31,306 bases of DNA from positions 1 to 31,306 of IMG/VR virus record IMGVR_UViG_3300017764_000054; one strand, written 5' to 3'. A program made the translations under genes and the position numbers. This document shows, in pieces, positions 8,093 through 22,681 of the stretch (the first letter of the stretch is position 1; every line of letters starts with the position of its first letter). This stretch comes from a virus. The notes below the pieces were generated by a model, which searched no databases, was not told where the DNA came from, and saw only the letters and a list, made by a program, of their open reading frames with translations.

Positions 8093-9643
8093 ATGTCTGA
8101 CGCAATAGTTAAGAACTTAAACTTTGGAAGCGATGCTCGCTCTAAGGTTTACGAAGGTATTGAAAAGCTAACAAAAGCCGTTAGCTCCACACTAGGGGCT
8201 AGCGGTCTTAGCGTAATACTTGAAAACGATAAAGGTAGACCGGTAATCACAAAAGACGGTGTAACAGTGGCAAACAATATATTTTTGCGTGATCCTGTTG
8301 AAAATATGGGCGCAACGCTTTTAAAAGATGCTGCTCGAAAAACCGTACAAGAAGCCGGTGATGGAACAACAACCGCAACTGTACTTGCACATGCAATTCT
8401 TAAAAATGCATACAAAGCATTAGAGCAAGATAGCTCAAGAACACTAAAAGAAGGAATTGCGAGTGGTGTTGAAAAAGTAATTGCATACTTAGAAAAGATT
8501 GCAATACCAGTTGACGGTGATATGATTGACCAAGTAGCAACTATATCTGCAAACAACGATAAAGAACTTGGTAAGCTTATAAGTGATGCTTTTAAGTATG
8601 TAGGTAATACAGGTGTGGTTATCATGCAAACCACAGACGAACCTGAAACAACAATAGAAGTTGTAGATGGCGTGCAATATGATCAGCCTCTTAAATCTAA
8701 TCACTTTATAACAAACGAAAATATAAATGCTGCAGAGCTTGACAACCCTTATATATTAATATCGGAATCACCAATTCCAAATATACGTAGGATTCAATCA
8801 GTTTTGGAGCATGTTATAAAAAAGAATAAATCATTATTAGTAATTGCAGACGTTGAGCCTCAAGTGCTGAACACTCTTGCGATGAATAAAATGAAAGGCA
8901 ACATAAAGGTCAACGTAATTGATTTACCGACTTACGGTATAACGCGTAAGGAAGTAATGCAGGACCTTTGTATGCTTACAGGAGCCAAGGTTATTAATGA
9001 AGATCTTGGAGACGATATGGACCTCATAGATATCGAAATGCTAGGCGCCTGCGTTAAAGCAGTTACTAATACAGAAGAAACTGTTTTGCAAATTAAAAGC
9101 AAGTCAGAAGAGGTTGAAGAAAAAATTAAAGCAATACAAAAAGATCTTGAAAAGCCAATGATGCCAGCTGCAAAGGTTAGGTATGAAAAAAGGCTAGCAA
9201 GACTATCTGCAAAAGTTGCCGTTGTAAAAGTCGGTGCTAATTCAGAAGTTGAGTTAAAAGAAAAGCGTGATAGAGTTGAAGACGCTATATGTGCTACAAA
9301 AGCCGCGATTAAAGAAGGTATAGTACCAGGTGGTGGAATAGCCCTTTTAAATGCTGCACAGAAAATAAAAGCTGTCAGCAAAGGCGAAGAACTATTTTAT
9401 AAATCAATTAAAGCGCCTTTCTATACGATACTTAGCAATGCAGGTATTGAAGAATTTGAAGAGCCTACTATTAAAGGCAAAGGGTTAAATGTTGTTACAG
9501 GGGGTATGGTGAATATGATTAAATCTGGAATTATCGACCCGCTACTTGTTACTAAAAGCGCTCTTCGGAACGCGGCTTCAGTGGCCACAACAATTATATC
9601 AACCGATTGTGTAATTAATAACGTTAGAGTAGAACAGTTATGA
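8093..9643 (+). CDS. groEL: Phage-encoded group I chaperonin GroEL (516 aa)
   Basis: Homologous over its full length to the 60-kDa chaperonin that folds proteins in a double heptameric ring by ATP hydrolysis. Visible residues: TLG at 33-35, D55 in ITKDGVTVA (E. coli D52), the nucleotide-binding GDGTTTATV with D90 (E. coli D87), and D397 in RVEDAI (E. coli D398, the catalytic Asp), followed by PGGGIALL. The catalytic machinery is therefore intact. Two things differ from E. coli. The apical site written GYLSPYF there reads PLKSNHF here, and the protein stops after VINNVRVEQL without the GGM-rich tail. The loop TLGPKG is TLGASG. It overlaps groES by ATGA; the order is groEL-groES, opposite to most bacterial operons. 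It probably folds abundant virion proteins. Confidence 0.97.
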   Translation: MSDAIVKNLNFGSDARSKVYEGIEKLTKAVSSTLGASGLSVILENDKGRPVITKDGVTVANNIFLRDPVENMGATLLKDAARKTVQEAGDGTTTATVLAHAILKNAYKALEQDSSRTLKEGIASGVEKVIAYLEKIAIPVDGDMIDQVATISANNDKELGKLISDAFKYVGNTGVVIMQTTDEPETTIEVVDGVQYDQPLKSNHFITNENINAAELDNPYILISESPIPNIRRIQSVLEHVIKKNKSLLVIADVEPQVLNTLAMNKMKGNIKVNVIDLPTYGITRKEVMQDLCMLTGAKVINEDLGDDMDLIDIEMLGACVKAVTNTEETVLQIKSKSEEVEEKIKAIQKDLEKPMMPAAKVRYEKRLARLSAKVAVVKVGANSEVELKEKRDRVEDAICATKAAIKEGIVPGGGIALLNAAQKIKAVSKGEELFYKSIKAPFYTILSNAGIEEFEEPTIKGKGLNVVTGGMVNMIKSGIIDPLLVTKSALRNAASVATTIISTDCVINNVRVEQL

Positions 9644-9900
9644 AAGCAATCGGGTATTACTTAATAGTAGAAAAAGAAAAACAAGGTTCACAAAAAACAG
9701 AAGGCGGTCTGCTAATTGCAGAAAATGCCCGTGAAGATATAAGATACGCAAAAGCAAGCGTAATATCAGCGGGCGCCGATATAGTTGGAATAAAGGCTGG
9801 CGATGCTATTTATTATGATAGGCACGCCGGCCATTCCATTGAACTTGAAAATAAAGTATACAATGTAATTAAAGCGCAAGATGTAGTCGTTATATTATGA
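9640..9900 (+). CDS. groES: Phage-encoded co-chaperonin GroES (86 aa), apparently roofless
   Basis: Cpn10-family protein that would cap the GroEL ring. The N-terminal strand YYLIVEKEK is followed by a mobile loop at about residues 14-33 whose contact tripeptide lies in GGLLI (22-26; E. coli GGIVL). VISAGAD and KAGDAIYY match the E. coli strands LAVGNG and KVGDIVIF, and the end VIKAQDVVVIL matches SESDILAIV. Between VISAG and KAGD only six residues (ADIVGI) remain, about nine fewer than E. coli, so the roof hairpin is missing. This explains the 86-aa length (E. coli 97). Its start ATGA overlaps the groEL stop and its own stop overlaps the next gene the same way, so all three are probably translationally coupled. 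Confidence 0.93.
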   Translation: MKAIGYYLIVEKEKQGSQKTEGGLLIAENAREDIRYAKASVISAGADIVGIKAGDAIYYDRHAGHSIELENKVYNVIKAQDVVVIL

Positions 9901-10342: not shown

Positions 10343-10663
10343 ATGGCTTATACAAAAAATCCAATAATGCGTTTGGGTAATCCTCAAATAGATCCTATGA
10401 CAGGTCAGCCAATGCAAACAACAATGGTACCACCTCAAATGGCACCAATGGGAGGCGGCTTTACACCTCAAGTTCAGCAAAATATACAAGGTATGACAGG
10501 ATCACCTGAAATGCGGCAATACGCGGCAGGCGGTATGAATGCGCCTTTATTTATGAAAGACTCACCTTTAAATGGCAATGCCTTTACAGCAGCATTGCAA
10601 TCAGCCAAGGCATCGGGTGCTAGTACATTTGAAGTTAGTGGAAAAACTTATAACGTAAAATAA
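10343..10663 (+). CDS. Small Met/Pro/Gln-rich protein with C-terminal AF-x-A-GxxTF motif (106 aa)
   Basis: The first 70 residues are low-complexity and rich in Met, Pro, Gln and Gly (PMTGQPMQTTMVPPQM), probably disordered. After MNAPLFMKDSPLNG comes a compact C-terminal segment, AFTAALQSAKASGASTF then GKTYNVK. The same pattern (AF, A, two residues, A, GA-x-TF, GK-x-Y) closes the protein at 13291-13683. From memory it also ends many small Bacteroidota phage proteins. It begins two bases after the winged-helix gene and is the first gene of the small-protein cassette. Function unknown; a minor virion component is a reasonable guess. Confidence 0.65.
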   Translation: MAYTKNPIMRLGNPQIDPMTGQPMQTTMVPPQMAPMGGGFTPQVQQNIQGMTGSPEMRQYAAGGMNAPLFMKDSPLNGNAFTAALQSAKASGASTFEVSGKTYNVK

Positions 10664-10668
10664 TAATT

Positions 10669-10854
10669 ATGAAAAAACAACCATTAAAAGGCGGAATAGT
10701 AGGAGAGTCTCACGTGTGGGATGGGCCTATTGATACATCAGGGTTTCCTATGGGAAAAGGTAGCAGCTCAGGGGCGAACGGTATGCAAATTAAAAAATAC
10801 CCTTGCAAGTCTTATGACTTAAACCCGCCTATTACACAACGAGCAAAACAATAA
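10669..10854 (+). CDS. Unknown small protein (61 aa)
   Basis: Unrecognised. The sequence starts MKKQPLKGGIVGESHVWDGP and is Gly/Ser rich in the middle (PMGKGSSSGANGMQ), ending in a basic stretch with one cysteine (KKYPCKSYDLNPPIT). There is no signal peptide or membrane segment. It is retained because it sits in a run of same-strand genes with gaps of only a few bases on either side (five before, two after), starts with ATG and shares the short QP/SP-type N-terminus of its neighbours. Confidence 0.5.
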   Translation: MKKQPLKGGIVGESHVWDGPIDTSGFPMGKGSSSGANGMQIKKYPCKSYDLNPPITQRAKQ

Positions 10855-10856
10855 TT

Positions 10857-11171
10857 ATGTACGTTCAGCATAGCTCACCGTTCACTAAAAAAGGCGATGC
10901 TCCATCTAGGAAGAAATCAAAAGGCTATTATGCTAAAGTAAAAAAAGGTAGTGGCACTGGTAGTAAAGCCGGCGGGGGTATGACAGAAAAAGGCGTAAAG
11001 AAATATCGCAAAGATAATCCAGGTAGTAAACTATCAACTGCTGTGACTACACCGCCATCAAAGCTTAAAAAAGGAAGTAAAGCGTATAAACGTAGAAAAT
11101 CATTTTGTGCACGATCTAAAAGCTGGACCTCAGAAAGAGGTAGAGCCGCACGAAGAAAATGGAATTGCTAA
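10857..11171 (+). CDS. Very basic conserved phage protein, DUF6321-like (104 aa)
   Basis: Strongly basic protein that starts MYVQHSSPFTKKG. A conserved core follows: GGGMTEKGVKKYRKDNPGSK at 39-58, then KAYKRRKSFCARS at 75-87 and a final RRKWNC. Cysteines are at 84 and 104. From memory this GG-MTxKG, NPGSxL, RRKSFCAR, RWxC pattern is a small domain seen in many marine phages and matches what I recall of DUF6321; the family name is not certain. The charge suggests nucleic-acid binding, perhaps packaged with the genome, but that is inference. Confidence 0.75.
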   Translation: MYVQHSSPFTKKGDAPSRKKSKGYYAKVKKGSGTGSKAGGGMTEKGVKKYRKDNPGSKLSTAVTTPPSKLKKGSKAYKRRKSFCARSKSWTSERGRAARRKWNC

Positions 11172-11172
11172 T

Positions 11173-11742
11173 ATGAAATATAAACCGTTTACATCAAAAC
11201 ACTGTACACCTTCAAGGTTTACAAGTCCATTAATGCAAACTGATGCGGTTGAAAAGAAAACGCAAATGGATCAAATAAATGCCATTGTTAAAGCGAATCA
11301 ACAAAGAACAGGATATACTCCGCCTACAAACCGCGCACAGCCTACTATATCGCAAGGAACTGAAGATAGCCTTTTTACAAAGCTTAAAACAATTGTATCA
11401 AATCCATTTGATGCTTTAAAAGTTGCATTAGTCCCAGAAGAAGGCGCCTATGAAAGTTTACAAGCTTTAAGAGAAACAAAGCAAGCAGCAAATGCGGGTG
11501 TAAAAGAAGCAAAAAACCAATTAGATTCAACTAAAGCATTTAATACATTGTCACAATTTGTACCTGCCGTCGCTACAGCAGATGCTATTGCCTCCGCGAT
11601 TGAAGGAGATCCAACTGCTATTGTAACAAAAAAGTTAAATAAAATAAAACCTGTGTCTAAAGCTTTAAAAAATATAAATTTAGACCCTAATAAAGCTTCC
11701 AAAGTTTTAAGCACAGGGCTTAAGGTTGCTAAAAAAATATGA
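11173..11742 (+). CDS. Unknown helical protein of the small-protein cassette (189 aa)
   Basis: The ATG at 11173 is chosen because it begins one base after the preceding stop and gives an N-terminus (MKYKPFTSKHCTPSRFTSPLM) like its neighbours. A start at 11107 would add 22 residues that merely mirror the end of the previous gene in another frame. The remainder is predicted helical and basic, with a hydrophobic Ala/Val-rich segment at about 121-140 (LSQFVPAVATADAIASAIEG) that is weak for a membrane span. The C-terminus is Lys-rich. Its stop overlaps the next gene (ATGATG). No function is recognised; a structural or internal virion protein is possible. Confidence 0.6.
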   Translation: MKYKPFTSKHCTPSRFTSPLMQTDAVEKKTQMDQINAIVKANQQRTGYTPPTNRAQPTISQGTEDSLFTKLKTIVSNPFDALKVALVPEEGAYESLQALRETKQAANAGVKEAKNQLDSTKAFNTLSQFVPAVATADAIASAIEGDPTAIVTKKLNKIKPVSKALKNINLDPNKASKVLSTGLKVAKKI

Positions 11743-11906
11743 TGAAAGATAGAGGGCTTGGTGATACTATAGCGCGTGCTACTAAAGCTACAGGCATAGA
11801 TAAGTTTGCAGAGCAAGTTGCTAATGGTTTAAATATACCAGGCGGCTGTGGCTGTAAAGAGCGTCAAGCATATCTTAATAAAGTTGTACCATACGGTAAA
11901 AAATAA
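11739..11906 (+). CDS. 55-aa CGC-motif protein (small conserved phage protein)
   Basis: Short gene starting at an ATG that overlaps the previous stop. The N-terminal part, GDTIARATKATGIDKFAEQV, is an amphipathic helix. It is followed by GGCGCKERQAYLNKVVPYG. From memory the same layout (LGD-hydrophobic helix with TKATGI, then CGCxxR, LN, PY) is a recurring small protein in flavobacterial phages and prophages, of unknown function. The two cysteines separated by one residue could bind metal in a dimer or be redox active. An ATG one codon later is an alternative start. The gene fills an otherwise empty 167-base gap. Confidence 0.75.
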   Translation: MMKDRGLGDTIARATKATGIDKFAEQVANGLNIPGGCGCKERQAYLNKVVPYGKK

Positions 11907-11909
11907 ATT

Positions 11910-12221
11910 ATGGCTTTTAAAATGAAACCAGCTCCATTTAAAATGGATGAAACTCCGGTATACTATGTAGACATGGAAGAAGGTGTTTTAGGTAAAGCTA
12001 ATAATAACGGCACAATAATAGTAGATGAAAATTTATCACCGCTAGAAGCTAAAAGTGTTATTAAGCACGAGCAAGTGCATATAGATCAAATGCGCAGAGG
12101 TGACCTTGATTACGACGATAAAAATGTATACTGGAAAGGCCGTATAATTCCTAGATCTAGTATCAAAGAAGGTGATGAGAATTTACCTTGGGAAAAAGAA
12201 GCTTATAATAAATGTAAATGA
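11910..12221 (+). CDS. Minimal putative zinc metallopeptidase with HEQVH motif (103 aa)
   Basis: Residues 52-61 read KHEQVHIDQM, a HExxH zinc-binding helix with His53, Glu54 and His57. It is preceded by the strand GTIIVDENLSPLEAKSV and followed by GDLDYDD and LPWEKEAYNK, in which Glu95 or Glu97 could be the third zinc ligand, as in Glu-zincins. The layout is that of small phage metallopeptidase-like proteins. At 103 aa it is only a catalytic core, with no signal peptide. The N-terminus MAFKMKPAPFKMDETP carries the motif shared in this cassette. Possible jobs are processing of a virion protein or peptide cleavage in the host; a wall-degrading role is unsupported. Its stop overlaps the next start (ATGA). 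Confidence 0.7.
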   Translation: MAFKMKPAPFKMDETPVYYVDMEEGVLGKANNNGTIIVDENLSPLEAKSVIKHEQVHIDQMRRGDLDYDDKNVYWKGRIIPRSSIKEGDENLPWEKEAYNKCK

Positions 12222-12430
12222 AAACTTCTAAAAAAGGATATTTAAAAAATAGCCCTGATGTTAATAAGCCTTATAATGTTATTGAAGGCAACAAAATAAC
12301 AATGAAAGGAGTTGAATTTAAAGTGCTAGGTATTGACAATAATGGCTCAGCTAAAATAATGTACCCTGGTTACGATTATGTATTTCCAGGTGCTAAATAT
12401 GTAACAGAATATCCGTTAAATAAAAAATAA
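12218..12430 (+). CDS. Small conserved phage protein with NSPDVNxPYN motif (70 aa)
   Basis: The protein starts with a basic stretch, then YLKNSPDVNKPYNVIEGNKI, followed by TMKGVEFKVLGIDNNGSAK and an ending with MYPGYDYVFPGAKYVTEYPL. From memory this series (NSPDVN-x-PYN, ITM-x-G-V, LG-x-DN-x-G, PG-x-Y-x-FPG) is a well-conserved small protein of Bacteroidota phages, including crAss-like relatives, with no known function. It appears to be a small beta-rich domain. It overlaps the metallopeptidase gene by four bases, so the two are coupled and may work together. Confidence 0.75.
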   Translation: MKTSKKGYLKNSPDVNKPYNVIEGNKITMKGVEFKVLGIDNNGSAKIMYPGYDYVFPGAKYVTEYPLNKK

Positions 12431-12436
12431 ATAATT

Positions 12437-12859
12437 ATGCCATATCAACAAAAATATAAAGCAGTAGCTAGAATGAATAGCCCTTACGCTAAGCTAGGGC
12501 ACAGTAATTCTGTAGCTATGCAGCAAAAAAGATACGTATTAGAATCAGATATAGAAGCGGCTACCGAAGGCAATCAATTAGTTCCTGAGCTAGGGGGTAA
12601 TTTAAACGAAGTTGTAGTAACTGCAAACCCAAAAACTGGTAATACAACAAACTCAACGTCTACATCAGATACAAACGTTAAAACAGGAAAGAAAAAAAGA
12701 AAGCCTAAGGCACCATACAGTTTAGCTGGAGTTGCTATTCAAGCATTAAGAGTGCCATTTACACGAAGAGCATATGGAGCACGTGAAGGCGCAAAAAGAG
12801 AAACAGAAAGAAAAGCTGGGTTAGCCACAAGCAATCGTTATAGAACAAGATTATTTTAA
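12437..12859 (+). CDS. Basic small protein containing a TonB-box-like LNEVVVTA motif (140 aa)
   Basis: The N-terminus MPYQQKYKAVARMNSPYAKL carries the cassette's SP motif. Residues 18-29 (AKLGHSNSVAMQ) match residues 20-31 of the protein at 13291 in the pattern A-x-L-x-H-x-x-S-V-A-x-Q. Residues 56-64 read LNEVVVTAN, the sequence typical of the TonB-box region of Bacteroidota TonB-dependent transporters. It is followed by a Thr/Ser/Asn-rich linker and a basic C-terminal half (GKKKRKPKAPY and an Arg-rich end). There is no signal peptide or barrel, so it is not itself a transporter. Its last gene neighbour is separated by an inverted repeat, so the unit may end here. Function unknown. Confidence 0.65.
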   Translation: MPYQQKYKAVARMNSPYAKLGHSNSVAMQQKRYVLESDIEAATEGNQLVPELGGNLNEVVVTANPKTGNTTNSTSTSDTNVKTGKKKRKPKAPYSLAGVAIQALRVPFTRRAYGAREGAKRETERKAGLATSNRYRTRLF

Positions 12860-12874
12860 AAGTAATTTAATATA

Positions 12875-12904
12875 TAATTATGTAATATTTATATTGCATA
12901 ATTA
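12875..12904 (+). promoter_or_regulatory. Near-perfect 14-bp inverted repeat before the secreted-protein gene
   Basis: TAATTATGTAATAT at 12875-12888 and ATATTGCATAATTA at 12891-12904 are inverted copies that match at 13 of 14 positions around a two-base centre. It lies in the 61-base gap, one of the longer non-coding gaps in the window, 16 bases before the ATG. It could be an operator dyad, a weak AT-rich terminator for the upstream cassette, or both. The lack of G+C and the tiny loop make an intrinsic terminator less likely, so I favour a protein-binding site. Confidence 0.5.
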
Positions 12905-12920
12905 ACTTAAATTAAATATA

Positions 12921-13286
12921 ATGAAAAAAATACTTTTATTAACAATTTTATTTTCAGCTTTTACATTTGCACAAGGTAAATTTCAAGGGTGGTGGCATAA
13001 CCCCGAGCAAGAAGATTATATAACAATAATTGAAGAAACTGATTTTGGCGTAATAAGCGTTGTTAATTTTGATCCGTTTGAAGATCATTATATACAAGAA
13101 CAAATAGTTGAAAGAAGTAAAAACACTTTTACAACACACATACACAGGCCTGAAAACGGATGGACTGTTACAATTGAATATAAATTAAAAAGTAAAAATC
13201 GTTTAATATGTAAATTTACAGGCGATTACAATGAAACTTTAATATACAAAAGGTATAAATTTCCAAAACAAAAATTAAAAACTTAA
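12921..13286 (+). CDS. Secreted or periplasmic protein with signal peptide (121 aa)
   Basis: MKKILLLTILFSAFTFAQ is a clear Sec signal peptide: two lysines, a hydrophobic core and a TFA-Q end, with likely cleavage after Ala17, the style common in Flavobacteriia. The mature part of about 104 residues is beta-rich (YITIIEETDFGVISVV, FTTHIHR, WTVTIEYKL, RLICKFTG, TLIYKRYKF) with one cysteine. It resembles a small lipocalin-like or beta-sandwich domain but no family is recognised. There is no lipobox. It has its own leader with an inverted repeat, unlike its neighbours. Such genes in phages often change the host surface, for instance by superinfection exclusion, but that is inference; it could also be an acquired host gene. 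Confidence 0.75.
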   Translation: MKKILLLTILFSAFTFAQGKFQGWWHNPEQEDYITIIEETDFGVISVVNFDPFEDHYIQEQIVERSKNTFTTHIHRPENGWTVTIEYKLKSKNRLICKFTGDYNETLIYKRYKFPKQKLKT

Positions 13287-13290
13287 AACA

Positions 13291-13683
13291 ATGGCATATA
13301 CGCAATCGCCCGCAAATGTATTAAAAGGGCAAATGAAAAACAAAGCGGCAGGATTAATGCATGGCGACTCTGTGGCTCATCAAAACGTTAAAAAAGGAAA
13401 CGATTCAGAACTATTGAATTATAGCACTAACCAATATAGTTACACAAATAACCCTAATGACCGATTAGCGAATAATAGAGTTCAAGATGGGCATTTAACA
13501 GGGGCTAGATTTCATTATTCAGATAAAGAAGACGGCCCAAGTGTAAGAGAAGCATTTAACCAAGCGTTTAAAAGAGCTGGCAAACTAGGTGCTAAAACTT
13601 TTAATTTTCATCACAGTGGTACAAAAGACAAAGATGGTAAATATACTTTTAAAGGCGGTAAGTATACTACTGAAAAATCATAA
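13291..13683 (+). CDS. Small-protein cassette member with AxLxHxxSVAxQ and GAKTF motifs (130 aa)
   Basis: Starts MAYTQSPANVLKGQM, then AGLMHGDSVAHQ at 20-31, which matches the protein at 12437 (A-x-L-x-H-x-x-S-V-A-x-Q). The centre is Asn/Asp-rich. The C-terminal part, REAFNQAFKRAGKLGAKTF, is followed by a hairpin and GGKYTTEKS. It shares the end pattern AF-x-x-A, GA-x-TF, GK-x-Y with the protein at 10343, so this gene links two other cassette members. It starts four bases after the secreted protein and ends immediately before the holin gene. Role unknown; a virion-associated or DNA-contact protein is possible. Confidence 0.65.
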   Translation: MAYTQSPANVLKGQMKNKAAGLMHGDSVAHQNVKKGNDSELLNYSTNQYSYTNNPNDRLANNRVQDGHLTGARFHYSDKEDGPSVREAFNQAFKRAGKLGAKTFNFHHSGTKDKDGKYTFKGGKYTTEKS

Positions 13684-14341: not shown

Positions 14342-14543
14342 TATTGGGTCAGACTATAAGAATGACGCAATGCATTATTCAGTAGGTCAGCAAGTATATG
14401 GCGGTCACGAAATATCGGCTATACTGTTTGAAGACGAAGATACTTCGTACAATATCTACATTAAGAAAAACTCAGAGGTTTTGCCATGGAAGAAATTTAA
14501 CTCTAACATGGCAATTTCCGTTGAGTACGATCTTGAATACTAA
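14319..14543 (+). CDS. Small conserved Bacteroidota-phage protein (74 aa)
   Basis: Begins inside the coiled-coil gene (23-base overlap in another frame). The N-terminus RKISIGSDYKNDAMHYSVGQ is, from memory, the signature of a small protein found in crAss-like and other Bacteroidota phages near the terminase. The rest is beta-rich and ends in YNIYIKKNSEVLPWKKF and an acidic tail. A role in packaging or morphogenesis is suggested only by location. Its stop TAATG shares a base with the next start, so translation is coupled. Confidence 0.75.
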   Translation: MKLIRKISIGSDYKNDAMHYSVGQQVYGGHEISAILFEDEDTSYNIYIKKNSEVLPWKKFNSNMAISVEYDLEY

Positions 14544-15148
14544 TGAAATCATTATACCAATTTATAGTAAAACCTAAAGGCGAACGATATAATAATACTA
14601 AAAAAGTAGGTGACAGTAGCCTGCTACTAAATACAAGTATAGAAAGCTTTCGTCACATAAACAAAGAAGCTATAGTAGTTTCTACTCCAGCTGCTTTTAA
14701 TACCAACATAAATATAGGAGATACTGTTTTAATACATCACAATATATTTAGAAGATGGTATGATATGAAAGGGGCTGAAAAAAACGGAAGTATGTATTTT
14801 AAAGATAATATGTATTTCGTTAACGTAGATCAAGTTTATGGGTATAAAAAAAATAACAATTGGGTTATGGTTAACAATAGATGCTTTATAAAGCCTATTA
14901 AAGAAACAAGCTCATATTCAAACGAAAAAGAGCAAAAGCATATTGGTATACTAAAGTATGGTAATAATGCGTTAGAAGCGCTCCAGATTAGCCCAGGAAG
15001 CTTAGTAGGCTTTACGCCTAGTAGTGAATGGGAATTTATTATAGACGATGAGCGTCTTTATTGTATGAAATCAAATGATATAGCTATTAAGTATGAACGT
15101 AAAGGACACGAAGAAGAATATAATCCGAGCTGGGCAAAAAGCGGTTAA
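14543..15148 (+). CDS. Possible tandem GroES-like (Cpn10-fold) protein (201 aa)
   Basis: Two similar halves can be read. Half one (about 1-103) has FIVKPKGERYN, a loop with SSLLLN, EAIVVSTP, INIGDTVLIHHN and VNVDQVYGYK. Half two (about 111-188) has CFIKPIKETS, a charged loop, HIGILKYG, ISPGSLVGFTP and YCMKSNDIAIKY. Both follow the co-chaperonin order: strand ending in KP, mobile loop, G-V strand, GD/GS-x-V strand, then a closing V-x-x-x-D/N strand. From memory this protein is conserved in Bacteroidota phages, with the ending GHEEEYNPSWAKSG also conserved. It overlaps both neighbours. Whether it binds GroEL is unknown; a virion or packaging role is the alternative. Confidence 0.6.
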   Translation: MKSLYQFIVKPKGERYNNTKKVGDSSLLLNTSIESFRHINKEAIVVSTPAAFNTNINIGDTVLIHHNIFRRWYDMKGAEKNGSMYFKDNMYFVNVDQVYGYKKNNNWVMVNNRCFIKPIKETSSYSNEKEQKHIGILKYGNNALEALQISPGSLVGFTPSSEWEFIIDDERLYCMKSNDIAIKYERKGHEEEYNPSWAKSG

Positions 15149-21226: not shown

Positions 21227-22681
21227 ATGGCATTATCACCTTTGTACGGCTCGTTGATCCCAACGGCCGCAAAACAAACCGGCACTTCAAACTATCTTGA
21301 TTTTACAAGTGGTGCTGGTAATGACTTTTCTCAACAATATCTACCTGAAATTTATGAAGCTGAAGTAGAGCGATACGGAAACCGTACGCTTTCTGGATTC
21401 CTTCAGATGGTAGGAGCTGAGATGCCGATGAGTTCTGATCAAGTAATTTGGTCTGAGCAAAATCGTTTACATATTTCGTATAACGCATGTACAATTGCAG
21501 CCGCTGATAGCGCTACTGTAATTATTGGAGACAACACTACTGGAGGATCTAGTATTGTTGGAGGCACTGGAAAACATCATGCGATTCGTAAGAATGCATT
21601 GATTGTTGTTCTTGATCCTGACACAGGCACTGAGCAAAAAGCTTTTGTAAGCGCGATTACAGGGACTACCGTTGAAGCTCACCCATTTGGGTCAGCAACA
21701 TGGTCAGCTGCTCTCGTATCTGCAGATGCTTTAAAAGTATTTGTATTTGGTTCTGAATTTGGAAAAGGAACTTCCGGAATGGAAGGTTCAGTAGAGCCTG
21801 AGTTTACTCAGTTTAGTAACTCGCCTATTATCATTAAAGATCATTATGGTATTAATGGTTCTGACACTGCTCAGATTGGATGGGTTGAAGTTGCTACTGA
21901 AGATGGAACTTCTGGATATCTATGGTATCTAAAAGCTGAATCAGAAACAAGACTACGTTATCAAGATTACTTAGAGATGACAATGGTTGAGGCTGAAAAA
22001 TCTGATTCAGCAACTGATACTACAGGTTCTATTTCTGCTTACAAACAAAATGTAAAAGGTACGCAGGGTCTTTTTGCAGCGCTTAACAAGCGTGGGAATG
22101 TATATTCAGCTTTTCCTGCTACATTAGATTCTTTTGACGAAATCCTTAAAAACCTAGACGGACAAGGTGCAATTGAAGAAAATATGCTTTTCTTAGATCG
22201 TACTACCAATCTAGCTTTTGACGATATGCTTGCAGGGTTAAACGGTGGAAATACTGGATCTGGATCTGCTTATGGTATATTTGAAAACTCTGAAGAAATG
22301 GCTTTGAATCTTGGATTCACTGGCTTCCGCAGAGGTTCTTATGATTTCTATAAGACTGACTGGAAATACTTAAATGATGCATCAACACGTGGATTTGACA
22401 GCAGCTATAATACTGCGGGCGAGGATTCAATTGATGGTGTTCTTATTCCAGCTGGTACTTCTACTGTATATGACCAAATACTTGGTACTAACATTCGACG
22501 ACCATTCCTTCACGTACGTTATCGTGCATCTGAAGCTGATGATCGAAGACTTAAAACTTGGATTACAGGTTCAGTAGGTGGAGCATTCACTTCAAGCGAG
22601 GATGCAATGAATGTACACTTCTTGTCAGAAAGATGTTTGTGTGTTCAAGGTGCTAACAACTTCGTATTGTTGAAGAAATAA
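21227..22681 (+). CDS. Major capsid protein, HK97 fold type (484 aa)
   Basis: Starts MALSPLYGSLIPTAAKQTGT and continues YLPEIYEAEVERYGNRTLSG, then MSSDQVIWSEQNRLH, a start I recall from crAss-like and related Bacteroidota-phage major capsid proteins. The long middle and C-terminus (SERCLCVQGANNFVLLKK) fit the same family. Placement after a scaffold and before an intrinsic terminator agrees. Fourteen of its eighteen arginines use CGN codons, whereas the tail gene at 29179 uses mainly AGA, which suits the most highly translated late gene. The leader is A-rich (ATTTATAAAAAATGG) with no Shine-Dalgarno. No extra Ig-like domain is obvious. Confidence 0.9.
   Translation: MALSPLYGSLIPTAAKQTGTSNYLDFTSGAGNDFSQQYLPEIYEAEVERYGNRTLSGFLQMVGAEMPMSSDQVIWSEQNRLHISYNACTIAAADSATVIIGDNTTGGSSIVGGTGKHHAIRKNALIVVLDPDTGTEQKAFVSAITGTTVEAHPFGSATWSAALVSADALKVFVFGSEFGKGTSGMEGSVEPEFTQFSNSPIIIKDHYGINGSDTAQIGWVEVATEDGTSGYLWYLKAESETRLRYQDYLEMTMVEAEKSDSATDTTGSISAYKQNVKGTQGLFAALNKRGNVYSAFPATLDSFDEILKNLDGQGAIEENMLFLDRTTNLAFDDMLAGLNGGNTGSGSAYGIFENSEEMALNLGFTGFRRGSYDFYKTDWKYLNDASTRGFDSSYNTAGEDSIDGVLIPAGTSTVYDQILGTNIRRPFLHVRYRASEADDRRLKTWITGSVGGAFTSSEDAMNVHFLSERCLCVQGANNFVLLKK

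Follow-up and report, generated by a model that had tools for sequence, protein, structure and literature searches.

An N-terminal SP-type tag shared by unrelated small proteins in one lineage of marine phages

Unrelated small proteins of a clade of uncultured marine viruses of bacteria carry a short N-terminal peptide with an SP-type core. The peptide is non-random, is kept at the protein level and is exchanged between unrelated bodies, and it is very probably a functional, portable tag. It probably serves as an address that brings these proteins together at a single site of the infected cell, most likely the virus particle under assembly. Its occurrence was nearly confined to one portal/capsid lineage. 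To our knowledge, such a portable tag has not been described before, and the titles and abstracts of the literature searched yielded nothing relevant to a shared tag of this kind.

The tag was analyzed in an IMG/VR virus record of 31,306 bases, the whole of which is called the window. Portal and terminase group the window with phages of Flavobacterium (elemo) and Cellulophaga (phi19:3, phi38:1, Calle); further relatives by the same two proteins are phages of Maribacter (Panino) and Tenacibaculum (Gundel) and the environmental record MW202828. All eight open reading frames cited in the preliminary description were found where it had placed them, together with the peptides quoted for them. The features are as follows; GroES at 9640 and the capsid protein were named from sequence and position.

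8093-9643: GroEL
9640-9900: GroES
10343-13683: cassette of small proteins, between GroEL/GroES and the holin
10343..10663, plus strand: open reading frame for a small Pro/Met/Gln-rich protein, 106 aa; tag MAYTKNPIMRLG, motif 10358-10378 (NPIMRLG)
10669..10854, plus strand: GESHVWDGP protein, 61 aa; no true tag, QPLKGG being part of the body
10857..11171, plus strand: basic DUF6321 protein (PF19846 match), 104 aa; tag MYVQHSSPFTKKG, motif 10872-10895 (SSPFTKKG)
11173..11742, plus strand: 189-aa protein; tag MKYKPFTSKHCTPSRFTSPL, 11173-11232 (TSPLMQT), from the tag pattern scan
11739..11906, plus strand: RGLGD...CGCK protein, 55 aa; cassette member without tag, homologue also in MW202828
11910..12221, plus strand: putative HExxH metallopeptidase (HEQVH, alignment), 103 aa; start MAFKMKPAPFK, motif 11931-11942, a variant tag
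12218..12430, plus strand: NSPDVN-domain protein, 70 aa; no tag, resembles the N-terminus of the phi17:2 gp041 structural protein
12437..12859, plus strand: 140-aa protein; tag MPYQQKYKAVARMNSPYAKLGHS, motif 12476-12499 (NSPYAKLG)
12921..13286, plus strand: 121-aa protein, untagged, with a signal-peptide-like start in its sequence
13291..13683, plus strand: 130-aa protein; tag MAYTQSPANVLKGQMKNKAAGL, motif 13303-13329 (QSPANVLKG, a looser form)
13684: holin
14543-15148: second GroES-like protein (phrog_13932), just upstream of the terminase
15365: terminase
17581: portal
21227-22681: capsid protein

The preliminary description had assigned a common tag to eight proteins. Six of these carry one (10343, 10857, 11173, 11910, 12437, and 13291), whereas the motifs of 10669 and 12218 proved to be parts of folded bodies. 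The stretch in 10669 aligns to the body sequence P-x-L-x-G-x-VGES, and homologues vary at the supposed motif; NSPDVN of 12218 sits within a domain that is also found in a structural protein of phi17:2/phi4:1. The six tags of the window are [N/S]-[S/N/T/A]-P-[F/L/I/Y/M/A]-x-[K/R]-like, and the consensus of the tag is an N-terminal [N/S/D/G]-[S/N/T]-P-[F/L/I/Y/M]-x-[K/R], looser in single cases such as QSPANVLKG.

A scan of IMG/VR with a DNA pattern for the tag alone, MAFK[IM][KN][ST]P[LF], matched 88 stretches, which encode 60 unique proteins. Their bodies fall into 17 clusters without matches to each other; the number of clusters may be slightly too high because some were single short or truncated proteins. 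Among the bodies were a metallopeptidase, a PSAYASG module, a CLPxxK module, a GKDYDH protein, and a CWKGY module. A second pattern, KPFT.KHCTP, covering the KPFT.KHCT tags, was likewise found on several bodies. The portal family of the window was present in 46 of the 49 tag-scan contigs tested, matching at about 54-63% identity across most of the portal sequence, and the three contigs without it were fragments of 15-22 kb. Thus, the tag tracks the phage lineage and not the body.

Conversely, one body may carry many tags. The DUF6321 protein of the window (1.7e-10 and 41.8 bits for the PF19846 profile against a Pfam cut-off of 28.5) has homologues in which the body is preceded by NSPFxKKG, ESPLLRVRK, MKPFTxKxxTCTC..DSPLDRKK, Cys-rich GSPLxRK, NNPFKKL, or NNPLKMR, and the body also occurs without any tag (MPSKNAPSRKKSKGYY). 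The tag of 10857 is thus present, swapped for other SP tags, or absent among these homologues. In some DUF6321 proteins, a Cys-rich N-terminus (CGC..CGC) lies ahead of the SP tag (L188:4587-4973, L196:1938-2324).

The other tagged genes of the cassette behaved similarly. Homologues in the 10343 slot kept MAYTKNPIM or had SNNPIMR, NNPIMR, KSPAQ, or KSPNK instead. The variant APFKMDE of 11910 is replaced by PPF or PPY in close homologues and by MAFKMKSPF in distant ones. His53, Glu54, and His57 of the HExxH motif were invariant in the alignment of this protein; it scored below the Pfam cut-off for the DUF6782 metallopeptidase profile (12.8 bits against 27, E 0.07), and a fold search gave no match at E ≤ 0.001, PprI and minigluzincins being the best matches. 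For slots 11173, 12437, and 13291, the members in close relatives were picked by their tag, so that only the body identity is informative. The body of 11173 was swapped in close relatives (median body identity 0.26). The tag of 12437 was retained in three relatives (median 0.23), and that of 13291 was retained, in forms such as QSPVKVIKG and QNPLNVLKG, on bodies unrelated among the relatives (median 0.24).

Enrichment of the motif over chance was evaluated in two ways. Small genes upstream of terL in related IMG/VR contigs were grouped into 71 families by single linkage, which is conservative. SP[FLMY] at residues 3-27 occurred in 8.1 of the 71 families, as compared with 0.87 ± 0.72 after shuffling (maximum 3.2 in 200 shuffles); the values for other small genes of the same contigs were 2.0 and 1.0. 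An N-terminal motif in excess of a shuffled background, which the preliminary description had proposed to look for in related phages, was found. Furthermore, distinct N-terminal extensions that were 8 residues or longer and preceded DUF6321, PSAYASG, or CLPK bodies were collected from loci that had not been selected by tag. [STN]P[FLMYI] was present in 52 of the 55 extensions and in 3.7 ± 1.8 after each had been shuffled (maximum 10 in 2000), a margin that is overstated because the extensions are related by descent and not independent. The PSAYASG extensions had almost nothing in common beyond the core. Chance or composition as the source of the motif was rejected by both shuffle tests. Strong support for the earlier proposal that unrelated bodies share a signal comes from the 17 body clusters and from the 52 tagged extensions. 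The KLSP start of the GKDYDH family was rejected as a tag because untagged members have KLSR or KLSK at the same place.

Codon usage pointed to the peptide as the object of selection. In contig G070, MAFKMKSP[FL] opens three adjacent genes with four synonymous differences in every pair. Forty instances of the tag comprised 35 different 27-mers, with serine encoded by both TCN and AGY codons. Because synonymous codons differ between the tags of neighboring genes, it is the amino acids and not the DNA that are kept; together with the diversity of the 27-mers, this shows that recent DNA copying does not explain the shared tag.

According to AlphaFold2 models, the tag is a disordered peptide in front of a better-ordered body. 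Values of pLDDT below 50 were obtained for residues 1-4 and 9-20 of the DUF6321 protein and for residues 1-4 and 10-12 of the 11910 peptidase; the bodies of both were better ordered.

Tags tend to be present or absent together. Among distinct DUF6321/PSAYASG pairs in the same contig, 13 had both members tagged, 4 had neither, and 1 was discordant (Fisher p 0.0016, uncorrected for kinship); the count left out a divergent PSAYASG-like subfamily starting with MGKIS, which is untagged in the otherwise tagged genomes G009 and G010. In both the portal tree and the GroEL tree, untagged contigs were scattered at several places among tagged ones. Tagless relatives have the same bodies, and the tag is therefore not needed for having them. 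The tag was not found in the cultured relatives checked. Across 11 tagged and 3 tagless genomes, no gene family tracked the tag, apart from a weak association of the GESHVWDGP protein of 10669, which was present in 6 of the 11 tagged and in none of the 3 tagless genomes; core proteins showed no tag-linked insertion of note. We propose no partner by name, since neither a gene nor an insertion followed the tag cleanly. Mimicry of the capsid protein N-terminus was considered and rejected; many members have [ST]P in this region, but in different surroundings. Many capsid proteins of the clade start with MALSPL[FY]G or have [ST]P close to the N-terminus, a likeness to the tag that may be due to chance.

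The tag may well be a disordered peptide that can be moved between proteins and serves the docking or targeting of separately encoded small late proteins, with loading into the virion, by analogy to the capsid targeting sequence (CTS) of phage T4, as the mechanism. Virion loading is the best of the explanations, on the indirect basis of structural annotations of homologues elsewhere. In the GKDYDH family (phrog_6437), phi38:1 gp080 and its Calle_1 homologue are annotated as structural, a label given by annotators that does not transfer directly to the tagged proteins because most family members are untagged. The domain of the untagged 12218 protein also occurs in a phi17:2 protein annotated as structural. 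A marine family resembling internal proteins has a homologue in G058 that opens with MVNKKESPMK. Gp060 of Synechococcus phage S-P4 (L283:5029-6618), likewise annotated as structural, holds PSAYASG (74% identity) and DUF6321 (39%) modules in one protein. It thereby joins modules that are separate genes in tagged phages. A third module in this protein (CLPxxK) reached a BLAST E of only 0.02 and is not claimed. The main text of a 2010 cyanophage paper called T4-GC119 hypothetical. The structural annotations of homologues of some bodies, the fused S-P4 modules, and the lineage specificity fit the earlier proposal of prohead or virion loading; that a metallopeptidase would be an unexpected component of a nucleoid speaks against it.

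The T4 CTS is a short peptide at the N-terminus of internal proteins that are small and basic and whose mature regions diverge; it is cleaved off by gp21 and has been regarded by reviewers as a possible route for various proteins into capsids (PMC9026906). As in T4, a short N-terminal peptide is here common to proteins with divergent bodies. Like the CTS of IPI, IPII, and IPIII, the marine tag is a portable N-terminal peptide on small basic late proteins whose bodies are free to vary. It differs in belonging to another phage lineage and in occurring on far more body types, and the likeness is one of anatomy and not of sequence alignment. A short peptide on cargo proteins is also characteristic of encapsulin targeting (cargo-loading) peptides, which load cargo into an HK97-fold shell and whose partner is known; unlike the marine tag, they serve cellular nanocompartments and not virions. 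PhiCrAss001 is, like the tagged phages, a phage of Bacteroidota, and its protein cargo is stored in capsid and tail; it differs in having few large cargo proteins, and the available part of the source reports no shared N-terminal tag (PMC10172136). The cyanophage T4-GC0119-type protein, S-P4 gp060, shares the PSAYASG and DUF6321 modules with tagged phages but has them fused in one protein of 529 aa without an SP tag.

A rather unlikely alternative is that the tag docks to a partner inside the cell that is not part of the virion, for example the phage GroEL/GroES, a complex for replication or lysis, or a protein of the host. The cassette sits between GroEL/GroES and the holin, and GroEL and GroES belonged to the core proteins richest in columns that distinguish tagged from tagless genomes (6 of 520 for GroEL and 4 of 86 for GroES, more than terminase or portal), a comparison that rests on three tagless genomes and includes the effect of kinship. 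The chaperonin alternative is weakened by the presence of GroEL and GroES in tagged and tagless genomes alike, and several changes of tag state are required on the GroEL tree as well. The near-restriction of the tag to one portal lineage argues against a general host partner.

It is improbable that the tag is a nucleic acid-binding [ST]P-x-[KR] element like histone SPKK that condenses DNA together with basic bodies. Many bodies are indeed small and basic, and the proline is often followed by lysine or arginine. However, a hydrophobic residue directly after the proline is the commonest feature, unlike in SPKK: instead of [ST]P followed by two basic residues, position +1 was hydrophobic in half of the families and basic in 13%. 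The tag also occurs on a peptidase and on non-basic bodies, typically in one copy at the very N-terminus.

Still less probable is a processing or turnover signal, that is, a prohead-protease site or degron. Capsid targeting sequences of T4 are also cleaved (PMC9026906), and disorder of the tag in the AlphaFold2 models would agree with such a role. Yet no prohead protease was identified in this analysis, an acidic cleavage-type consensus is absent from the tags, and Met-initiated tags differ greatly in length.

Origin of the tag as a by-product of duplicating or recombining genes, with the 5' end traveling with the gene or aiding translation start without a protein-level role, agrees with the swapping of bodies within one slot among close relatives but is very improbable, and recombination was rejected as the source of the tag: tags of neighboring genes differ at synonymous sites while the amino acids stay the same, which counts strongly against it, only the SP core is common to different tag classes, and other small genes of the same phages showed no enrichment.

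If the tag serves virion loading, it would bind one phage-encoded assembly component of the lineage, such as the scaffold, the inner face of the major capsid protein, or the portal vertex. Through this binding, the small and often basic tagged proteins would be loaded into the prohead, packed with the genome, and perhaps ejected with it. A more tentative possibility, which we regard as somewhat doubtful, is a lineage-wide address code, in which interchangeable tag classes (MAFK..SP, KPFT.KHCT..SP, M[AP]Y.Q..SP) would build a modular virion-borne set; any gene gaining a tag would become cargo, and other phages would fuse the modules into one long protein. With the sequence rule, dozens of small proteins that lack annotation in a widespread group of marine phages would be assigned to one destination, and the short peptide would be a directly testable cargo-loading tag.
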